Source of the DNA: a virus
Virus record (IMG/VR): IMGVR_UViG_3300029448_000278
Span: 2,034 to 29,464 of that record
Length of the DNA: 27,431 nucleotides
Direction: 5' to 3' (one strand)
Numbering within the stretch: position 1 is the first letter of the stretch; the number at the start of each line of letters is the position of its first letter. Positions 1-25,805 of the stretch are shown here, one piece after another. The notes beneath the pieces were generated by a model. That model searched no databases, was not told the origin of the DNA, and worked only from the letters and a program-made list of their open reading frames with translations. The position numbers and the translations under genes were made by a program.

Positions 1-109
1 GATAAAGAAGCTACTGTAGTAGAATCCCATGAAATTAAATGTTGCTTAAGGCGTGGGTCTGACTTATTTAATGTCACACATAACCCATTCCGCAAAACTA
101 GGAGAGAAA

Positions 110-2473
110 ATGCAGAATGTAATAGAGTATTTAGAGCAGAAAATTATGAATACACCTCAGAGGTGGGCAGTAAGGCTGGTGAACGAGCACAAGCTAGAAC
201 CTAAGAGAGTTGTGTATGATGCACTAACTATATTGCAGTACCATTTTAGAAAGACTTCAACATCTGAATCAGCAACATGTAAACTTACTGCAGCCTCAGT
301 AGCTATAGGTAAGAACGTGTTGCTTCAGAAAGGAGTTGAGTTAGGATTTAGAGCCGATGTAACAATCGGCGACCTAATTCTTGAGGCTTTCTATGAGTGT
401 GGTTACATTAAGATTGTAAGAGCACCAACAGAAGCTCAAATGAAATGGGAAGCAAACCCGGTTGGTAAGAAACCGTATAGCCGTGCACCATATATGATTG
501 AAACCTCTGATAAATGGTTAAACATAGGATCATTACCTGACCAAGTAGTTAATGAGCTTATACAAAACACTTCAACTACTAAAATAAAACGCGTAAATAA
601 CTTGTTTCAAGATAACGGATTCCCAGTAATAAAGCACTGGGGGTTCGATAAAAGCGAAGACTTTAAGTTATTGCTTGATCAACCATTTATTGATGCAATA
701 AACAAACTACAACGTACAGCTTGGACAATCGACTCCGACATATTAGAAGCTGTACTTAAAAACAAGAGTAAGTTTGTTAGTGAAACTCTAAAAGTTGCTG
801 ATGAAACCGGTAAGAACTATAGATACTGTATTTTCGGTAACAACGAAGAGTTAGAAGGTAAGGACTTATACTGGAATGAGGTTGTGTTTAAACCTGAGTT
901 AGGTAATAAGTCTCTTGAAAAGAAATACTATGGTGAACTACGACGACTAACTAATAAGCTTCGTAATAAATCTAATAAAAAGCCGCTGATACGAGCTCAA
1001 GCTAAGTATGACGAAGCTGCTACACATTGGAACGCTAAGTTAGTATTACTTAAAAACCGTAGTAAATTTGACGCGTATAATATGACTGTCCAAAAAGCAG
1101 AAGCATTGAAGGATAAAATATTCTTTCAGTATGTAGATGCAGATTATAGGGGGAGATTGTATTATCGTGAATCGTATTTAAACTACCAAGGTAAAGATAT
1201 GGAGCGAGGTCTATTGAAGTTTGCTAATGCACAACCAATGACCGAAGAAGGTTTGTATTACTTTGCTGTGCATACAGCATGTTCATACAACCAGGCGTAT
1301 TCAATCGATAATATACCGGAGTGGTGTGAAGCCGATTATAAATCAGCGTTAGAAAATGAAGGTCTTACAGATATTTCTGTAGACAAAATGACTATTGACG
1401 ACCGAGTTAAGTGGGTTGTTAATAACGAAGACTTCATTAGAAATACATGGATAAACCGTACTATCCATGAAAGAGCTGAGAAGCCTGTAGGTTTTCTCGC
1501 TTGTTGCAAGGCGTGGTGTAACCTATGGGACACGTCTAAGACCGGTGAGTTTTATTACAGCGATCTTCCTATTCCTATTGATGGCTCTAACAACGGCTGG
1601 CAGCACTTAGCTGCTATATCTAAGGATAAAAACGCCGGTGAGCTAGTAGGTCTAGTAAAAACTGACATACCTAAAGACTTTTATGTGCAAACAGCTAAAG
1701 CATTGATAGCTCGCGTGCCTGAGTGGTTCGCGCAGAGAGACATGCCTATGAAACACATAAGGAAAGGTATATCGAAACGCGGAGCGATGACTAGAGCGTA
1801 CTCTGCGGGCCACCTAGCCATAGCTTTGAACATGTATGCTGACTGTTATGCTGAAGGATTCCATAGTAAGTACAATATTACTATGTCTGACTGTAACGAC
1901 TTAGCATTTCAGCTCATAAAAGCTATTGATGAGGTGTGTCCAGGCCCGTTAGAAACTATGAGTTACCTACAAGCTATAGCAAACCACATTATTGCTGAGT
2001 TAAAGGAACCTGTAGTTGACTGGCAAACTCCATCTGGCTTTCCAGTACGATACGAAAACTACGTAATGGAAGACGTTAAGTGGAAAAGTTGGATCTCTGA
2101 TATGAGAATCCAGCACGTAGGTAAAGAACATAGGCTAGTGTACGGTAAAAAGATACCTAGTCCTGGTGGCTTTGCCTCAGGTATAAGTCCAAACTTTATT
2201 CATAGTATGGACGCAGCACATATGGCTCTGATTATTCATCACTGGGACGGAGACTTTGCTGCTATTCATGACTCATTTTCTACTCACGCTTGTGATGTAG
2301 CTAGCTTGTTAGATTTAACTAAGGAAGTGTTCATTAAAATGTACGATCATGATGATTTTTATAAAGACATAGCAGAAATGTTATTGCTTGAACCTAAAAA
2401 GTTTAATTACAACTACAAGTTAGGAGATCTAGATATAAAAGGAATAGCTAACAGTGACTATTTCTTTTCTTGA
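110..2473 (+). CDS. T7-like single-subunit DNA-directed RNA polymerase
   Basis: Phage RNA polymerase that would transcribe the phage's own promoters in the host cytoplasm. From the ATG at 110 it is 787 aa (T7: 883). Visible motifs: DYRGR (D345-R349, the DxxGR motif), motif A IDGSNNGWQH (catalytic D491), motif B KRGAMTRAYS (K556 and Y564, eight apart as in T7 K631/Y639), and motif C IHDSFST (H720, catalytic D721). The C-terminus ends in aromatic residues (YFFS), comparable to the FAFA end of T7. I prefer the start at 110 because AGGAG lies at 100-104, five bases before it; in-frame ATGs at 53 and 71 have no convincing ribosome binding site. It is the only large gene on the + strand and runs towards the late operon. 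The family is certain; only the exact start is open. Confidence 0.97.
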   Translation: MQNVIEYLEQKIMNTPQRWAVRLVNEHKLEPKRVVYDALTILQYHFRKTSTSESATCKLTAASVAIGKNVLLQKGVELGFRADVTIGDLILEAFYECGYIKIVRAPTEAQMKWEANPVGKKPYSRAPYMIETSDKWLNIGSLPDQVVNELIQNTSTTKIKRVNNLFQDNGFPVIKHWGFDKSEDFKLLLDQPFIDAINKLQRTAWTIDSDILEAVLKNKSKFVSETLKVADETGKNYRYCIFGNNEELEGKDLYWNEVVFKPELGNKSLEKKYYGELRRLTNKLRNKSNKKPLIRAQAKYDEAATHWNAKLVLLKNRSKFDAYNMTVQKAEALKDKIFFQYVDADYRGRLYYRESYLNYQGKDMERGLLKFANAQPMTEEGLYYFAVHTACSYNQAYSIDNIPEWCEADYKSALENEGLTDISVDKMTIDDRVKWVVNNEDFIRNTWINRTIHERAEKPVGFLACCKAWCNLWDTSKTGEFYYSDLPIPIDGSNNGWQHLAAISKDKNAGELVGLVKTDIPKDFYVQTAKALIARVPEWFAQRDMPMKHIRKGISKRGAMTRAYSAGHLAIALNMYADCYAEGFHSKYNITMSDCNDLAFQLIKAIDEVCPGPLETMSYLQAIANHIIAELKEPVVDWQTPSGFPVRYENYVMEDVKWKSWISDMRIQHVGKEHRLVYGKKIPSPGGFASGISPNFIHSMDAAHMALIIHHWDGDFAAIHDSFSTHACDVASLLDLTKEVFIKMYDHDDFYKDIAEMLLLEPKKFNYNYKLGDLDIKGIANSDYFFS

Positions 2474-2709: not shown

Positions 2710-5700
2710 TTAACCGGCATCAATCTGAAATACGTCATTAAGTCTTTTCATTAGTTCTTTAAAGTATTGTTCTTTTGCCTTATCGTTGCCTTCTACAAAA
2801 GCTTTGTTACGCTCTACTAGTTTTAATTCTCTAATCATTTTTCTAAAAATATAAAGCATTTGTTTAGCGTTTAACTCTTTACGTGGCTCAGCACCTATAT
2901 ACTTAAATCTACTATCTGCATTTAAATTTGCCTTTTGAATATCAACCGCAGGACCAGACTTCTTACCATCTATATTAACAGTCATAATCCTATCAGCCAT
3001 ATTCATAGCAGCTAATTTCTTAGCAAAGCTGTATTCGCTAATAGTTTCAGGACGAATATTTTTAGTTTCCTTATCAACCTTCTTTTTATCTCTAGGTCTA
3101 AACTCCATAGTATCTTCTAATAACTCAACTAAGTTATTTAAACTTAATTTACCTGGCTCAACATAAAATGTAGGTTTAGTTGCATGCATTAAGTTATAGA
3201 ACATTTTAAATGGTCCTAACTCAGTAGCTATAATTCTCATAGAATCTTCTCTAGTAAACTCCTCGTCAACAGCTTGATTTTTTCTAGCGAACTCTCGCGC
3301 AATAGCTAAATTAACAGCATCAAAGCTTACTACTTGATCACCCATATCTTCTAGCTTCTTTTCGAATCTAGCAATAGCACCTGGCGTCCAGTCCATCATT
3401 AAACTTTTATATGGGCTATAGGTTTTTGTAACCTCAGACCAGTTTTTATTTGCTTCTCTTCGAACTGCAGCTCCACCCTTTATATCTGTTTTAACAGCAT
3501 CCATAATAGGTAGCATGTATTGACCTTGCAACTTATTCCATGATGAACCTGTAAACATCTTGTTCATCCATGCACCATCGATAGCTTGTATTATAGCTGG
3601 TATCAGTCTGCCTCTTGCCCAACCTCCGGGTCTACCGTCACGAGGAGCACTACCAGAAGGAACAGATTCCCTCATCCCAATACCTTTTACAACGACCTGC
3701 TTACCATCAGGGTTTATCTTAGAAGTAAGAATAGATATATCAGACATAACTGGCTGCCCAGTATCTCTATCTATTTTCTTTATACTTTCTTTAGCTCCGA
3801 TGTAGCTCTTAAATCCTAAAGCATTTTCGATTTCCATAATATCGTTTGACATTGTAGCTACGATGTTATTAGCTCTTAGCAACTGACCTACTTCTAGTAC
3901 ACCTGGATGTAATTCAGAATCTATTGAATCAGCTAATATATTATGTAAGTAATCAATGACAAAGTGCTCTTCAGTCTGACCGTTCTTATGATCTAATTTT
4001 TTATCAAGTGCTTTAGTATTTTTTAGATCAGCAATAATATCTCTGATTGGTGAAGAAAAGTCTCCTGCGAGAACAGTTTGACGAACTTCTGCATCTAGTC
4101 TTTGTATTAACCGACCATACGATAGCGTCATAACGGGCTGCTTCAAAAAATTATCTCTATCTTGAATAGCAAGGTTTAATATTTCATACAGCTTTTGACC
4201 AGTAGTTCCATCAACACCAAATCCGTTTACAGCATATTCTAAACCATTAGACTCCATGTAATAACCCATAGCATCTCTAATATCACCAGCTCTTTTTTCT
4301 ATTTCAGCCGGGCTTAAACCTTCTACTTCAGCTAGTTCTGCAACAGGAAGTTCATCTAAGTTCTTTTCTGCTCCAGTCTTTCTAAATACACCAGTTCTAT
4401 ACCCTTGCTTTATTGCGCCTAACGTGGCTAAAAACGAAGAAACCCCATGTGTTTTACCATCGTATTCTATACCTATATTAGTGGTAAACTTTGTACCATT
4501 TTTTATAGCTTGCAAATACTTCTTCATTTCTATAGCAGCTTCGATTCTATGGACACCATCAAGGTCTTCACTAAGACCTGCGCTATCTCTAGTTCTAGCC
4601 ATTAAGCTATCAGGAATATTAAGTAAAGGTACGTTAGCTAACTGCTCAGGTACCTTAATATAAGTATTATCAGTAAGAGTAGCAGGTTCCATCTGTCCTG
4701 TCTCAGGGTTCATCATCATTTTATTTTGCTGACGAGGATTAACCGATGGACCAATCTCTCTAAGAAGTCCTAATGTTTCTTCATGAGCTTCAGCGTTCAT
4801 TAAGCTCTCTTCTACTACAGCACCTTCAGCAGCAATAGCATCAAACAAACTACCTGGCTGACCGCTTTCTGCCATAGCTTCATCAAACATTCTTTCACGT
4901 ACCTTAGGTAAAGCTTTCTTACCACCAGGAATAAAGAGTATAGCCATCAGTTCTTTAAACGTACCATGCTCTTCAGACGCTGCTTTGGGATTAAAGGTTG
5001 TAGGTTCTACACCTCCTGTTATGTATCGTACCCAAGGTATAAGTTGTGGATTAAATCTTGTTTGATCAACGTGCATACGGGTTGTTAGCTCTTGCAATAC
5101 AAAATCTAAATGGTAAGCTCCGTTGCTGTATCTACCTATTGTATTTAAAAACTCTAAAGCTCTAGTGAATTGCTTATCCATTTCGTAAGCAGGATCGTAT
5201 TCAGCATCTATTTCAGCTTTAGCTATTTCGTACAGATCACCGTCAAACGTAATTGATTTACTACCAGGCCCTGATAATTTTTGTACTCTTTCAGCAATCT
5301 TTCTATCTTTTTCTCCTTGGAAAGCTCTAAACTTTTCAGGTCCTAATTTAAAAAGATCACCGACAGGGTCAAGGTCTTGTTGGCTTTTAGCCTGGCGCAA
5401 CGCTTCAAATATTAATTGAATGCTAAGTTTAGATCGCAAAGTATCTATCTTATGAGGAATAGAGTTCATATTCAAGCGACCTTCTTCTACTTGCCTTAAC
5501 TTACGGTTGTATATAGCAGTAGTTCTAATGTTAGCTTGCTGATCACTAGGTAATACGTTAGGAGTTGTTACTAATCTTGGTTTTCTTTCTACATTTTTAA
5601 ATGCATCAGGGGCCGATTGAGCAGACGCTTCTAAAGCTTTTAATCCCCACTCAGTTAATTGATACTTAACTATATTACCTGTAGTTTCTTTTGTCATTAA

Positions 5701-7062
5701 GTCTGGGTTAGTCGATTGCCAAGCATCTCTAGCAAAAGCTCCTATAGTTTCGTATTGATCATTAGTTAAAGCATTTACATTGTAGTTACTAGTCGGTCTA
5801 CCTAAAGCTCTGTTCTGTTCTCGCTTCCATTCTTTGTATATTTCTCTACCAAGTCTTGAAGCACCTGCAACTCTGCTTGCGCCGCCTTGTTCAATCTGAG
5901 CTGGCGCTTCTCCTGAAGGACCATCTTCAAATAGCTCTAGCTGTTCAGGCCTAATCACTCCCTGATCTACAAGTTCTTGACTAGCTTCTGTTCCAAGTGC
6001 AGGAACATACTGAGTCTGCAATAAATGCTTTTCAGTAACAAAGTTCATAATCCTTATAAGCTTAGGGTCAACTAACATTTGATTCTGTTTAGTTCTAGTA
6101 AGCGGGTTAGGTAAAAATACTCCACCATTAAATCCGTTAGGATCAAAGAATATACCTTTTAAACTTAATGGATTAAAAGAAATACCAGGATGGTAGTCAT
6201 TAAGATAATCTAAAAAAGTTTTTGGTGCATCATTAGCCATTCGTTGTTCTGCATCCATCTTCTCATTAAACAATGCTTGTTCGTTTTGATTAAGATTAGC
6301 AGGCATTCTAAGAGTTTCTTCTCCGCCTCTTAGTACGTTCGATCTACCTCTGCCTTCATCTATAGCAGAAGCTATTGTAGCTTTTATCATAGATTTAGCT
6401 TGGGCTGGCTTAGCATACGCCATCTGAATATCTGTTCCGGCGCCTGCAATTTCAGGACTTACCTTACCCCATACTCCTGCAACAAGTTTATCACCACGCG
6501 CTACAGTCTGCCCAAAGCCATCGTTTAAAATGCTAGTAACTGACTCTCCTTGCGGTGCAATTTTGTTAACTAAGTTTTGTGTAGTAGGTGCAAAGGATTG
6601 GCCAGCAGCTTCTGCAGCTAATAGCTTTCTTCTTTCATTAGCATCTAAAGTTATCTCAGGTCTTATATCTGCAATAGGATCTACTGTTTCTTCTCGCTGC
6701 TGTTGAGCTGCGAGTTCGTCTATACCAGCTTCTTCTCTTCGCTTTAGATCTATAAACTCTTGTTCTTGTCTAACTCTCTCTTGATCTTGAAAGTTAAACT
6801 TAGTTGGCTTTATTGTATCAGGAAGATTAGGATCATCTTTACCTTGTCGGTAGTAAGCAAATGATTCATCTGAGTAAGGGTTAAACTGCTTATCAGTAAG
6901 CCTGCTAGTAGAATACCTGTACTGTAAGCTTTGTGGACCTTTCTCTTTTAGTCTTTCAATAGCAGTCTTAGGTCTTGTTTGCATACCTAACTCAGCTACC
7001 TGAGCTTCTCGTTCTCTTGTATCTTCTATAATTTTCGTTTGTGGGTTTACTCTTATTGCCAT
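2710..7062 (-). CDS. Giant virion protein with embedded second single-subunit RNA polymerase domain (vRNAP-like)
   Basis: 1450-aa last gene of the late operon. Residues about 550-1250 show diverged single-subunit RNA polymerase motifs: TTRMHV followed by FNPQ (R662, aligned with the T/DxxGR and NPQ motif), motif A IEYDGKTHG (D868), motif B KQPVMTLSYG (K974, Y982; T7 has KRSVMTLAYG with the same eight-residue spacing) and motif C QAIDGAW (D1162, with Ile where T7 has His). The A-B and B-C spacings (106, 188) are close to those of T7 (94, 181). The first 450 residues or so are unrecognised and charged, with a likely coiled coil near 92-125. Start 7062 has AGGTGA upstream and follows the preceding stop by three bases. 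Position and size suggest an ejected internal protein, as with the N4 virion RNA polymerase. Motif B is convincing; enzymatic activity and virion location are inferred. Confidence 0.82.
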   Translation of the reverse strand: MAIRVNPQTKIIEDTREREAQVAELGMQTRPKTAIERLKEKGPQSLQYRYSTSRLTDKQFNPYSDESFAYYRQGKDDPNLPDTIKPTKFNFQDQERVRQEQEFIDLKRREEAGIDELAAQQQREETVDPIADIRPEITLDANERRKLLAAEAAGQSFAPTTQNLVNKIAPQGESVTSILNDGFGQTVARGDKLVAGVWGKVSPEIAGAGTDIQMAYAKPAQAKSMIKATIASAIDEGRGRSNVLRGGEETLRMPANLNQNEQALFNEKMDAEQRMANDAPKTFLDYLNDYHPGISFNPLSLKGIFFDPNGFNGGVFLPNPLTRTKQNQMLVDPKLIRIMNFVTEKHLLQTQYVPALGTEASQELVDQGVIRPEQLELFEDGPSGEAPAQIEQGGASRVAGASRLGREIYKEWKREQNRALGRPTSNYNVNALTNDQYETIGAFARDAWQSTNPDLMTKETTGNIVKYQLTEWGLKALEASAQSAPDAFKNVERKPRLVTTPNVLPSDQQANIRTTAIYNRKLRQVEEGRLNMNSIPHKIDTLRSKLSIQLIFEALRQAKSQQDLDPVGDLFKLGPEKFRAFQGEKDRKIAERVQKLSGPGSKSITFDGDLYEIAKAEIDAEYDPAYEMDKQFTRALEFLNTIGRYSNGAYHLDFVLQELTTRMHVDQTRFNPQLIPWVRYITGGVEPTTFNPKAASEEHGTFKELMAILFIPGGKKALPKVRERMFDEAMAESGQPGSLFDAIAAEGAVVEESLMNAEAHEETLGLLREIGPSVNPRQQNKMMMNPETGQMEPATLTDNTYIKVPEQLANVPLLNIPDSLMARTRDSAGLSEDLDGVHRIEAAIEMKKYLQAIKNGTKFTTNIGIEYDGKTHGVSSFLATLGAIKQGYRTGVFRKTGAEKNLDELPVAELAEVEGLSPAEIEKRAGDIRDAMGYYMESNGLEYAVNGFGVDGTTGQKLYEILNLAIQDRDNFLKQPVMTLSYGRLIQRLDAEVRQTVLAGDFSSPIRDIIADLKNTKALDKKLDHKNGQTEEHFVIDYLHNILADSIDSELHPGVLEVGQLLRANNIVATMSNDIMEIENALGFKSYIGAKESIKKIDRDTGQPVMSDISILTSKINPDGKQVVVKGIGMRESVPSGSAPRDGRPGGWARGRLIPAIIQAIDGAWMNKMFTGSSWNKLQGQYMLPIMDAVKTDIKGGAAVRREANKNWSEVTKTYSPYKSLMMDWTPGAIARFEKKLEDMGDQVVSFDAVNLAIAREFARKNQAVDEEFTREDSMRIIATELGPFKMFYNLMHATKPTFYVEPGKLSLNNLVELLEDTMEFRPRDKKKVDKETKNIRPETISEYSFAKKLAAMNMADRIMTVNIDGKKSGPAVDIQKANLNADSRFKYIGAEPRKELNAKQMLYIFRKMIRELKLVERNKAFVEGNDKAKEQYFKELMKRLNDVFQIDAG

Positions 7063-21700: not shown

Positions 21701-23434
21701 TTATGCGCATTCCTTAACCCCAGTTTGTGGATCAATGAAACACGCTTCGACTTTATCTTCTTCTTGAATTGATTGAACCTCAGCCTTATCTTTCTTTTCT
21801 TCTTCCACGGCCGTGAGGATTCCGTATCTTTTACCACTGAGTCTGAACGTTGTACATCCTTTCGCCCCGCCTTTCCAGGCATCCACATAAACTTGTTTAA
21901 ATTTACTATACTCAACATCGTCCCCTACGTTACAGGTTTTTGAACAAGCACTATCAATATAATGCTGGGCTAATAGTAAAACAGATAAGTGCTCAACCAC
22001 AGTTACCTCGTTAGCTGTTTTACCTTCTACTCCTTTTGAGTAGGCATAATCTTCTACTCGCTCAACCTTAGGTCCATCAAAAGTTTGAATTGTTCTATCG
22101 TAGTAATGACTGAAGACGGGCTCAATCCCTCCTGAAACATTGTCAGCAACCAAGCTAATAGTGCCAGTAGGAGCGATAGACGTAAGGTGTGAGTTTCTGA
22201 TGCCATGCTGTTTTATTAGTTTCCTCACTGAATGTGGTAAACTTCTAACAAAATTTGATTTTAAATAAGCTTCTCTATATAGCGGGAACTCTCCCTTTTC
22301 TTTAGCTAACAATGCAGAAGCTTTGTAACAGTTGTCTCTTAAACAAGCAAATACTTTTTCTGCCCAATCCATAAATTCTTGAGATGCGTAAGGTAATCCA
22401 AGCATTTCACCTGCATTAGCAAGACCAGTAATCCCTAATCCCATACGTCTTTTATTCTTTGCTTCGTCTGATTGTTGTTTTAACGGATATATAGTTCTAT
22501 CAATAACATTATCCATAGCTCTTACAACATCAGGTATATCTTTTTTAAACTGATCGAAGTCAAATAGGTTTTGTATATCTTCTATAATGTACTTTGTTAA
22601 ATTAAAGCTACCTAATAAGCACGCTCCGTACGGCGGTAATGGTTGTTCACCACACGGATTTGTAGCTACTATTTCTTCGCAGTATTGTAAGTTATTCATT
22701 TCAGCTATGCGATCAATAAATAATACTCCTGGTTCTGCCCAGTCCCAGGTAGATTCCATTATCTGATCCCATAGTTTTTTAGCACATATGGTTTTATGTA
22801 CGTGATCTTCAAATACTAAGTCAAACGAGCTATCGCCTTCATTAGTTAAAGCTTCCATAAACTTATCGGTTATGCCAACACTAATATTAAAGCCAGTAAG
22901 ACGATCAGAGTTACGTTTAGCAGTAACGAACTCCTCAATATCCGGATGATCGACCCTGAGTACACCCATCTGCGCCCCGCGTCTGTGTCCCGAACTAGCG
23001 ATGGTTTGACAGATAGAATCAAAGATACCCATAAAGGAGACCGGACCACTAGCTTGGCTATCAAGCGATTTAATCTTATCGCCTCTTGGCCGGATCTTTG
23101 AGAAGTCATAGCCAATGCCACCACCTCTACGCATTGTTTCAGCTGCTTCACTTGCTTTCTCCATTATTGCATTCATACTATCTTCTATAGTTCCAGAAAC
23201 AAAACAGTTATAAGCTGTGGTTATACGGTTACTACCTACTGCGGATTGTACTCTACCAGCAGGTAGGAACCTCATATTACCTAGTATATTTTCTAATGCA
23301 TTTTTATGGTTTACATCGTCCATTAAAGCTCTTGATATTCTTTTTATTTTTTCCTCAAAGCTTTCACCTGTTTGTCGATATTTCATTTCATCGATCTCTA
23401 TAGATATAGGTGTTTCAGGTCCAGTATAATGCAT
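21701..23434 (-). CDS. nrdJ: Class II (adenosylcobalamin-dependent) ribonucleotide reductase
   Basis: 577 aa from the ATG at 23434. It reduces ribonucleotides to deoxyribonucleotides with a B12-derived radical, supplying DNA precursors in the infected cell. Key residues are present: C77 in YNCFV and C272 in YGACLLGS (the redox pair), C261 (thiyl radical site) and E263 in NPCGEQPLPP. The C261-to-C272 spacing of 11 equals C408-C419 in Lactobacillus RTPR. Glycine-rich RRGGGIGYDFS and the GCTTFR segment also fit. The C-terminus has a C565-x10-C576 pair, not the more usual closely spaced cysteines. I chose 23434 because AGGAG lies eight bases upstream; a GTG start at 23479 would have no ribosome binding site. 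It sits between structural and lysis-type genes, not in a replication module. Confidence 0.95.
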   Translation of the reverse strand: MHYTGPETPISIEIDEMKYRQTGESFEEKIKRISRALMDDVNHKNALENILGNMRFLPAGRVQSAVGSNRITTAYNCFVSGTIEDSMNAIMEKASEAAETMRRGGGIGYDFSKIRPRGDKIKSLDSQASGPVSFMGIFDSICQTIASSGHRRGAQMGVLRVDHPDIEEFVTAKRNSDRLTGFNISVGITDKFMEALTNEGDSSFDLVFEDHVHKTICAKKLWDQIMESTWDWAEPGVLFIDRIAEMNNLQYCEEIVATNPCGEQPLPPYGACLLGSFNLTKYIIEDIQNLFDFDQFKKDIPDVVRAMDNVIDRTIYPLKQQSDEAKNKRRMGLGITGLANAGEMLGLPYASQEFMDWAEKVFACLRDNCYKASALLAKEKGEFPLYREAYLKSNFVRSLPHSVRKLIKQHGIRNSHLTSIAPTGTISLVADNVSGGIEPVFSHYYDRTIQTFDGPKVERVEDYAYSKGVEGKTANEVTVVEHLSVLLLAQHYIDSACSKTCNVGDDVEYSKFKQVYVDAWKGGAKGCTTFRLSGKRYGILTAVEEEKKDKAEVQSIQEEDKVEACFIDPQTGVKECA

Positions 23435-23441
23435 TTGTAGT

Positions 23442-23477
23442 TCTCCTATTAAGAAAGTTTTGTCTCTAATAGGAGAC
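23442..23477 (-). promoter_or_regulatory. Hairpin that can bury the ribosome binding site of nrdJ, with an alternative stem
   Basis: Read on the - strand, TCTCCTATTA (23476-23467) pairs perfectly with TAATAGGAGA (23451-23442) over 10 bp with a 15-base loop; the second arm contains the AGGAGA ribosome binding site of nrdJ. A competing 5-bp stem, GTCTC (23477-23473) with GAGAC (23466-23462) around a 6-base loop, uses the first arm and would free the site. The two folds are mutually exclusive, so a translation switch is possible. The structure is visible in the sequence; its function is inferred. Confidence 0.6.
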
Positions 23478-23484
23478 ACTTTGG

Positions 23485-25629: not shown

Positions 25630-25805
25630 TAGTCAGCGTCCTTAATTGTTAGCGTACCTGCTTTCACTTGTTTTAGTATCTCTGCGTAGTGTCTGTTTTT
25701 TTCTGATAGGGGTATTGTAGAAATAAGACCATCAACAATTGCTGAAATAGATATTTTTGTAACGCCATCTAAATCATATATATATTTTGGGTTTTCTATT
25801 TTCAT
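25629..25805 (-). CDS. 58-aa small protein associated with tail genes
   Basis: Translated by me. It starts MKIENPKYIYDLDGVTKISI and ends AGTLTIKDAD after YAEILKQVK. This DGV..SI...VDG....P.....YAEI..QVKAGTLTI.DAD plan is familiar from small proteins beside tail-fibre genes of marine phages. AAGGA stands upstream of ATG 25805 and the stop overlaps the next start (TAATG). Function is unknown; a tail-fibre assembly or accessory role is inferred from the gene order. Confidence 0.8.
   Translation of the reverse strand: MKIENPKYIYDLDGVTKISISAIVDGLISTIPLSEKNRHYAEILKQVKAGTLTIKDAD

Follow-up and report, generated by a model that had tools for sequence, protein, structure and literature searches.

The window, i.e. 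the whole stretch of 27,431 nucleotides analysed here, covers positions 2034-29464 of a 29,464-base IMG/VR virus record. Near its left end, the gene for a T7-like RNA polymerase of 806 aa (P0002; 53..2473, + strand; PF00940, E 2.2e-55; phrog_414, E 2e-102) is convergent with P0001 (2710..7062, - strand), the final gene of a minus-strand late/structural cluster. P0001 encodes 1450 aa and was classified as a compact virion-type RNA polymerase gene from its open reading frame, family, profile and predicted fold. The initial annotation had described this reading frame as encoding a second, highly diverged single-subunit RNA polymerase (RNAP) of virion type that would not reach half the size of the N4 virion polymerase and was likely to be called hypothetical. 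The reading frame is present as described, and the protein has about 40% of the length of N4 gp50. Its unannotated status was likewise borne out: single-sequence searches with P0001 gave no meaningful Pfam or PHROG match and no match to PDB sequences, and tblastn found none in 50,697 phage records. Residues 1-289 (6196..7062, - strand) are a poorly conserved N-terminal part according to the family alignment and lie outside the structural model described below. The single-subunit RNAP core comprises residues ~493-1450 (model residues 204-1161; 2713..5586, - strand) and corresponds to residues 302-1063 of the N4 mini-vRNAP, as delimited by VIA-align to structure 3c2p.

Upstream of P0001 on the same strand lie two further genes for large proteins. 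The adjacent P0003 (7066..11298, - strand) encodes a giant protein of 1410 aa, which over a stretch of 70 columns is similar to the N-terminal (ejection) domain found in N4-type gp50 (hhalign, E 2.6e-4). Homologs of P0003 adjoin the vRNAP homolog in the relatives too, and in Roseobacter phage CRP-7 the homolog is gp34. That P0003 takes over the function of this gp50 domain is a conjecture. P0003 was also considered as the missing gp50 C-terminal domain, which is unsupported (E 0.11), the match being confined to the short segment resembling the N-terminal domain. By eye, the N-terminal 150 aa of P0003 have a staphylococcal-nuclease-like start (DADTL...RIKGIDSPE); the homolog in the relative G002 scored below the cut-off against PF00565 (E 0.0078). 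P0004 (11311..14454, - strand; 1047 aa) is a probable ejected transglycosylase, judged by eye and from an SLT transglycosylase domain in its G002 homolog (E 2.5e-5, above the curated cut-off). In the phages Zuri and ZX86, too, the vRNAP gene is preceded by a gene for a lytic transglycosylase or lysozyme.

Some further observations concern the surroundings. A ribonucleotide reductase gene (PF02867) is located at 21701-23479 of the window, within the cluster of late structural genes. A small ORF directly ahead of the T7-like RNAP gene (L004 1857-2237; the end of L004 overlaps window positions 1-204) has unread or masked bases and looks GIY-YIG nuclease-like by eye (YCVYFH...VIYVGKG). For three relatives (G002, G006 and G007), a TGA and a TAG were counted within the T7-like RNAP match, yet an open frame of 807 aa was reported.

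Family, sequence profiles and predicted fold

Two scans of IMG/VR yielded 21 loci including one duplicate (L007 and L017 encode the same protein), and the family set consisted of 21 distinct sequences, i.e. the window and 20 further IMG/VR sequences. The relatives, which belong to an uncultured marine phage group, show ~38-47% identity to P0001 in the region covered by the structural model, and complete family members have 1,163-1,599 aa. Among the 84,980 species genomes of the GTDB collection, no relative was confirmed. For comparison, we used N4 gp50 and 14 divergent vRNAPs of N4-like phages, most of which are classified as Schitoviridae. The P0001-family profile matched the polymerase-domain profile of these 15 sequences over 540 columns with an E value of 7e-13 and a probability of 97.8% (hhalign, E for a single comparison), and with E 3.5e-14 when the window sequence was left out. 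Reversed and block-shuffled controls gave E values of 0.045-0.16, and the N- and C-terminal domains of gp50, taken as thirds, were not matched (E 0.08 and 0.11). At the level of sequence profiles a chance resemblance to vRNAPs is excluded because of this difference between 7e-13 for the polymerase domain and 0.045-0.16 for the controls and the non-polymerase domains. A global hhalign comparison with the single N4 mini-vRNAP was uninformative. When the P0001 family was compared by profile with the phage group's own T7-like RNAP, no significant sequence similarity emerged (E 0.045).

In a tree of the polymerase domain, which has no outgroup and from which the direction of change cannot be read, the compact proteins and the Schitoviridae vRNAPs form two groups with 100/100 support and a very long branch between them. 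Comparison of neighboring genes of the window and the relative L001 showed 87% identity for the T7-like RNAPs and 44% for the vRNAPs, i.e. either very different evolutionary rates in adjacent genes or a swap.

An AlphaFold2 model of P0001 residues 290-1450, calculated from the 21-sequence alignment, reached a mean pLDDT of 74 and a pTM of 0.66. In a Foldseek search of the PDB, the best 50 matches listed were all single-subunit RNAPs (yeast or human mitochondrial, T7, N4), with a best E value of 6.5e-14 and E 2.8e-11 for N4 9pnq; among predicted viral structures, T7-like RNAPs and N4-type vRNAPs were listed. VIA-align superposed the model with N4 mini-vRNAP 3c2p at Z 20.9 (4.9 Å over 563 residues), tied in Z with T7 1s76 (Z 20.4) and human mitochondrial 6erq (Z 20.1). 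T7 1cez (Z 17.8, 3.9 Å over 502 residues) and the yeast and human mitochondrial RNAPs were also matched. A confident unrelated fold, which would have spoken against a polymerase, was thus looked for, and the model shows the single-subunit RNAP fold instead. To the extent that a prediction can show this, the core of P0001 has the right-hand palm/fingers fold of these enzymes. The assignment to the N4 type comes from the sequence profiles, by which the P0001 family is an N4-type vRNAP rather than merely T7-like. Profile comparison and predicted fold together support the proposed second, highly diverged RNAP of virion type.

Catalytic motifs and the position of motif C

The motifs quoted in the initial annotation were found at the residues given there (R662, D868, K974, Y982 and D1162). 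The R662 segment TTRMHVDQTRFNPQ (residues 660-673; 5044..5085, - strand) is by hhalign the counterpart of N4 TRVGRMQMLGKYNPQ with R424, where N4 residue numbers here and below are mini-vRNAP positions. Motif A, EYDGKTHG (4444..4467, - strand), forms a strand in the model, and its D868 corresponds to N4 D559. In motif B, RDNFLKQPVMTLSYG (4114..4158, - strand), K974 and Y982 correspond to N4 K670 and Y678; for both motifs, hhalign and a MAFFT merge were used. The near-identity of motif B to that of T7 had been emphasized. The motif is indeed found at these residues, but the motifs are closer to N4 gp50 than to T7, as seen in the N4/P0001 pairs VEADGVTNGP/IEYDGKTHGV, KNPLTITIYG/KQPVMTLSYG and TRVGRMQMLGKYNPQ/TTRMHVDQTRFNPQ. 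An insertion between the R662 region and motif A is present as claimed, the distance from R662 to D868 being 206 residues versus 135 in N4 and about 112 in T7. In the motif B pattern Rx3K, the R is shifted by one residue in the P0001 family and is not invariant. P0001 also fits the motif ExDGxxxG (E866, D868, G869, G873), which is conserved and used for recognising N4 vRNAPs (PMC10654107).

Motif C had been placed at AIDGAW with D1162, and this assignment proved wrong. The helix IPAIIQAIDGAWMNKMF containing D1162 (3553..3603, - strand) is by hhalign and model the counterpart of N4 GTGDGMMM and T7 SQDGSH. D1162 lies within a long helix of the AlphaFold2 model (model residues 858-880) and aligns with D929 in N4 IGTGDGMMM and with the T7 helix NFVHSQDGSH. 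Local BLASTP against the phage's own T7-like RNAP P0002 pairs P0001 RLIPAIIQAIDGAWM with ISPNFIHSMDAAHM and matches the D1162 helix to P0002 PGGFASGISPNFIHSMDAAHM. D1162 was therefore rejected as motif C and is the "QDG"-type Asp in the helix preceding it. The catalytic motif C aspartate is D1188 (codon 3499-3501) in YMLPIMDAVK (3490..3519, - strand). D1188 is located between two predicted strands (model residues 894-897 and 900-904), as expected of motif C, and pairs with N4 D951 (IFDGMN) both by hhalign and by the independent MAFFT merge.

Several details change with this correction. The interval 3577-5079 originally given for the polymerase stops short of motif C, and a D1162A mutant would not probe the metal-binding aspartate. 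The A-B spacing of 106 residues stands (N4 111), whereas the B-C spacing of 188 has to be corrected to 214 (N4 281). The residue replacing the motif C His is not Ile: the true neighbor before D1188 is Met, at a position that Phe, His, Tyr or Trp occupies in the sampled Schitoviridae.

In total, hhalign pairs R662/R424, D868/D559, K974/K670, Y982/Y678, D1162/D929 and D1188/D951, and in the MAFFT merge D868/D559, K974/K670 and D1188/D951 share alignment columns. R424, D559, K670, Y678 and D951 are known as the functional residues of the N4 enzyme. The catalytic Asp residues of motifs A and C and the Lys and Tyr of motif B are thus in N4 register and conserved: where sampled, R662 (17/17 sequences) as well as K974, Y982, D1162 and D1188 (21/21 each) are invariant, and D868 is kept in 17 of 18 sequences. 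The sole replacement of D868 is a His in the partial relative L002 (1-1269), where the surrounding stretch seems shortened; this may reflect degeneration of the copy, faulty assembly or misalignment close to the end of the contig.

Hairpins ahead of early genes in the relatives

The contig of the window has no early region, and hairpins were observed in the three relatives that carry this region, namely G001 (58,114 bp with a 55-bp terminal repeat), G002 and G003; hairpins are therefore a prediction for the window's own phage, where they would be expected on the early strand, with one at 25-45 nt ahead of the DNA polymerase gene. Scanning for stems of at least 6 bp revealed four hairpins in G001 with the loop ARAA closed by ATG/CAT, four in G002 with the loop ACAAG closed by AG/CT, and six in G003 with the loop ATYC closed by AT/AT. 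Genome-wide, all hairpins with these recurrent cores are intergenic (intergenic sequence making up 7-9% of each genome), lie on the early strand upstream of a gene, and occur nowhere else, with none at the ends of late operons. In shuffled genomes, the largest hairpin group mostly had one or two members and once three. Outer stem pairs change on both sides in a compensating manner while the loops are constant within each genome; for example, in G003 the loop ATTC is found on both GCGCGAT/ATCGCGC and AAATTTTAT/ATAAAATTT stems. No group of recurrent hairpins was seen in the contigs G004-G007, which apparently are fragments lacking the early region.

A perfect hairpin of 7-10 bp was present upstream of the DNA polymerase gene in 9/9 distinct regions versus 5% in shuffles. 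These nine regions are related sequences and not independent draws, and the stems differ in most pairs. Upstream of the exonuclease, RNAP and vRNAP genes, a hairpin of at least 7 bp was found in 0/20 regions. Ahead of its DNA polymerase gene, G002 has one further hairpin with the loop ATAAA (L055 10548-10566 = G002 30548-30566), and this loop is common to four relatives at this position (G002, L006, L009 and L001). The two loop classes of G002, ATAAA and ACAAG, might represent two timing classes. Unlike the recurrent hairpins, a 12-bp hairpin in the early region of G003 (AAAAATAACCCC-loop-GGGGTTATTTTT; 25712-25739, L058 5712-5739) is perhaps a true terminator. In two early regions, neither sigma-70 promoters nor terminators were predicted in marked excess over shuffled sequence.

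Early promoters of N4 are short DNA hairpins, which the vRNAP reads once supercoiling driven by gyrase has extruded them (PMC4496689). The N4 hairpin sites AAGAAGCTCCGCTTCTT (557, before gp2) and AAGCTGCTCCGCAGCTT (about 4546, before gp15) are alike in kind to those described here. They were found by their loop, and the scan for stems of at least 6 bp recovered no recurrent group in N4 itself, where the inner pairs of the hairpin stems differ. By analogy, the early-gene hairpins of the relatives are probably start sites for the compact vRNAP.

The hairpins could instead be terminators, RNA processing sites, protein-binding sites on mRNA or sites of the T7-like RNAP. This is unlikely in our view, albeit to be taken seriously, as the hairpins would form in RNA too and some are only 27-32 nt away from a start codon. 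A terminator scan, however, called none of the hairpins in the stretches of G001 and G003 that it covered. Also, AT-only stems occur, the G002 sites have no T run, and late-operon ends are free of such hairpins. Constant loops on changing stems would not be tolerable to readers of double-stranded DNA such as T7-like RNAPs, and the N4 precedent likewise argues for promoters.

Proposed role and comparison with known systems

With a probability of roughly 80%, P0001 is a compact stand-alone vRNAP of the N4 type, which is injected and starts early transcription from hairpins. We infer that an RNA-synthesizing P0001 would be made late and packaged beside the other large internal proteins P0003 and P0004, be ejected with the DNA and begin early transcription by itself. 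It would read hairpins with a stem of 6-10 bp and a loop of 3-6 nt with phage-typical sequence upstream of early and replication genes, and, as in N4, negative supercoiling would probably cause these hairpins to extrude on the template strand. The T7-like RNAP gene P0002, which lies downstream of the DNA-polymerase operon in the same direction, would likewise be switched on from the hairpin ahead of that operon, and P0002 would later take over from P0001. DNA polymerase is a middle gene in N4, so that its transcription from a vRNAP hairpin would set the present group apart from N4. Other points that speak against this reading are the Met before the motif C Asp, the His of L002 in motif A, the shifted R of motif B, the location of the hairpins in relatives and not in the window, and the lack of recurrent hairpins in G004-G007 and in the CRP-7 genome.

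Improbable, by our judgment, is a single-subunit RNAP descendant that turned into a structural or ejection protein and no longer makes RNA. The very long branch separating the family from the Schitoviridae vRNAPs, the Met before the motif C Asp, the motif A Asp missing in one partial relative and the fast divergence (44% identity to L001 versus 87% for the T7-like RNAPs) would be in line with such a loss of activity, but the catalytic residues are invariant across proteins of only ~40% identity (D868 in 17/18), and the N4-type hairpins of these genomes would then have no polymerase to read them. There is also little likelihood that P0001 is an active polymerase made during infection, e.g. for late genes, instead of being packaged. 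That no packaging signal is known would fit this; against it stand the location of P0001 as last gene of the late structural cluster beside genes for giant internal proteins, as for N4 gp50, the restriction of the candidate promoters to early genes, and an ordinary phage RNAP already present with P0002. A T7 gp16-like ejection protein resembling a polymerase by chance would fit the position of a large internal virion protein and the lack of a meaningful Pfam or PHROG match, but is highly implausible given profile, fold, motif order and conservation, and already refuted at the level of fold prediction.

If P0001 is an injected vRNAP, early transcription by an injected polymerase from hairpin promoters would extend beyond Schitoviridae to a separate marine lineage, with a polymerase of ~40% of the gp50 length, the ejection function in P0003 and a loop code of each species' own, and the N4 giant may be a later fusion; for this whole picture we see clearly less than even odds. 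The passage of giant vRNAPs through the tail and the role of their outer domains are standing questions in the field. A natural version without the outer domains shows what the same chain can spare and offers a smaller enzyme to work with. The finding also leads on to testable ideas about the architecture of ejected polymerases. In addition, species-specific hairpin loops together with divergent polymerases are a data set for the reading of a DNA hairpin by a polymerase.

A vRNAP of about 3,500 residues has been described as unique to Schitoviridae (Bellis et al. 2025; PMC12633501). In a 2023 survey of N4-like viruses, IMG/VR was searched with vRNAP profiles and hits under 2,500 aa were removed (PMC10654107); this filter would discard the compact family, which illustrates how such enzymes are overlooked. 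Our full-text literature search, of incomplete coverage, yielded no description of a compact vRNAP from phages other than Schitoviridae. Large internal proteins of StenR_269 and Zobellviridae type have been proposed as vRNAPs because they are large, helical and free of cysteine, with neither motifs nor fold being used (PMC10747016). That proposal shares with ours the idea of a vRNAP outside Schitoviridae and is set beside P0001 by description only.

With CRP-7, a podovirus of the same wider phage group that was isolated on Rhodobacteraceae FZCC0042 and is reported without significant synteny to known phages (PMC6918029), G001-G003 share capsid, scaffold, DNA polymerase, primase, RNAP and the P0003 homolog gp34 (phmmer, E 1e-34 to 1e-159), the exception being gp33 at the vRNAP position. 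CRP-7 gp34 matches P0003 with E 5e-28. CRP-7 gp33 (QBQ72826.1, hypothetical protein; L025 17859-21566) is unannotated, comprises 1235 aa, belongs to a family of 10 sequences and is located like P0001 in the genome, flanked by gp34 and the convergent gene of the T7-like RNAP. It contains an ExD segment (EADARQSNAG), RGLVVAGLYGK and QGGDST...AIHDALITG in polymerase-like order, and VIQGGDST...AIHDALITG resembles N4 GTGDG...IFDG. Whole-length similarity of gp33 to P0001 or N4 vRNAP was not significant (E 0.006 for a 70-residue segment), the structure prediction for its family had a pLDDT of 36, and the CRP-7 genome showed no recurrent hairpins. As a proven vRNAP, gp33 is thus not established, given the insignificant overall similarity and the low pLDDT of its predicted fold.

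When 21 N4 proteins were compared with G001-G003 by phmmer, only gp16 (RNAPII) matched below E 0.05. Judged by these hallmarks at the phmmer level, phages with the compact vRNAP would not belong to Schitoviridae, as none of the remaining N4 hallmarks searched for (DNA polymerase, capsid, portal, terminase and tail genes) was matched. T7-like and mitochondrial RNAPs have the same fold as P0001, without significant sequence similarity between P0001 and the T7-like RNAP of the same group. With N4 gp50 (PDB 2PO4/3C2P; 9PNQ) and its Schitoviridae homologs, P0001 shares the predicted single-subunit RNAP fold and the signature R / ExDGxxxG / Kx7YG / motif C, and with N4 and the sampled Schitoviridae the location of the polymerase gene at the end of the late cluster, at a convergent junction with the early/middle cluster. 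The three relatives with an early region also have hairpins ahead of early genes, as N4 does, with other loops and often longer stems. The compact vRNAPs have 1.16-1.60 kaa, whereas N4-type vRNAPs have 2.8-3.8 kaa (2,842-3,820 aa) in a chain of N-terminal domain, RNAP and C-terminal domain (PMC10654107). They form a long separate branch and, unlike gp50, carry the polymerase in a chain in which neither the N- nor the C-terminal domain of gp50 was detected.
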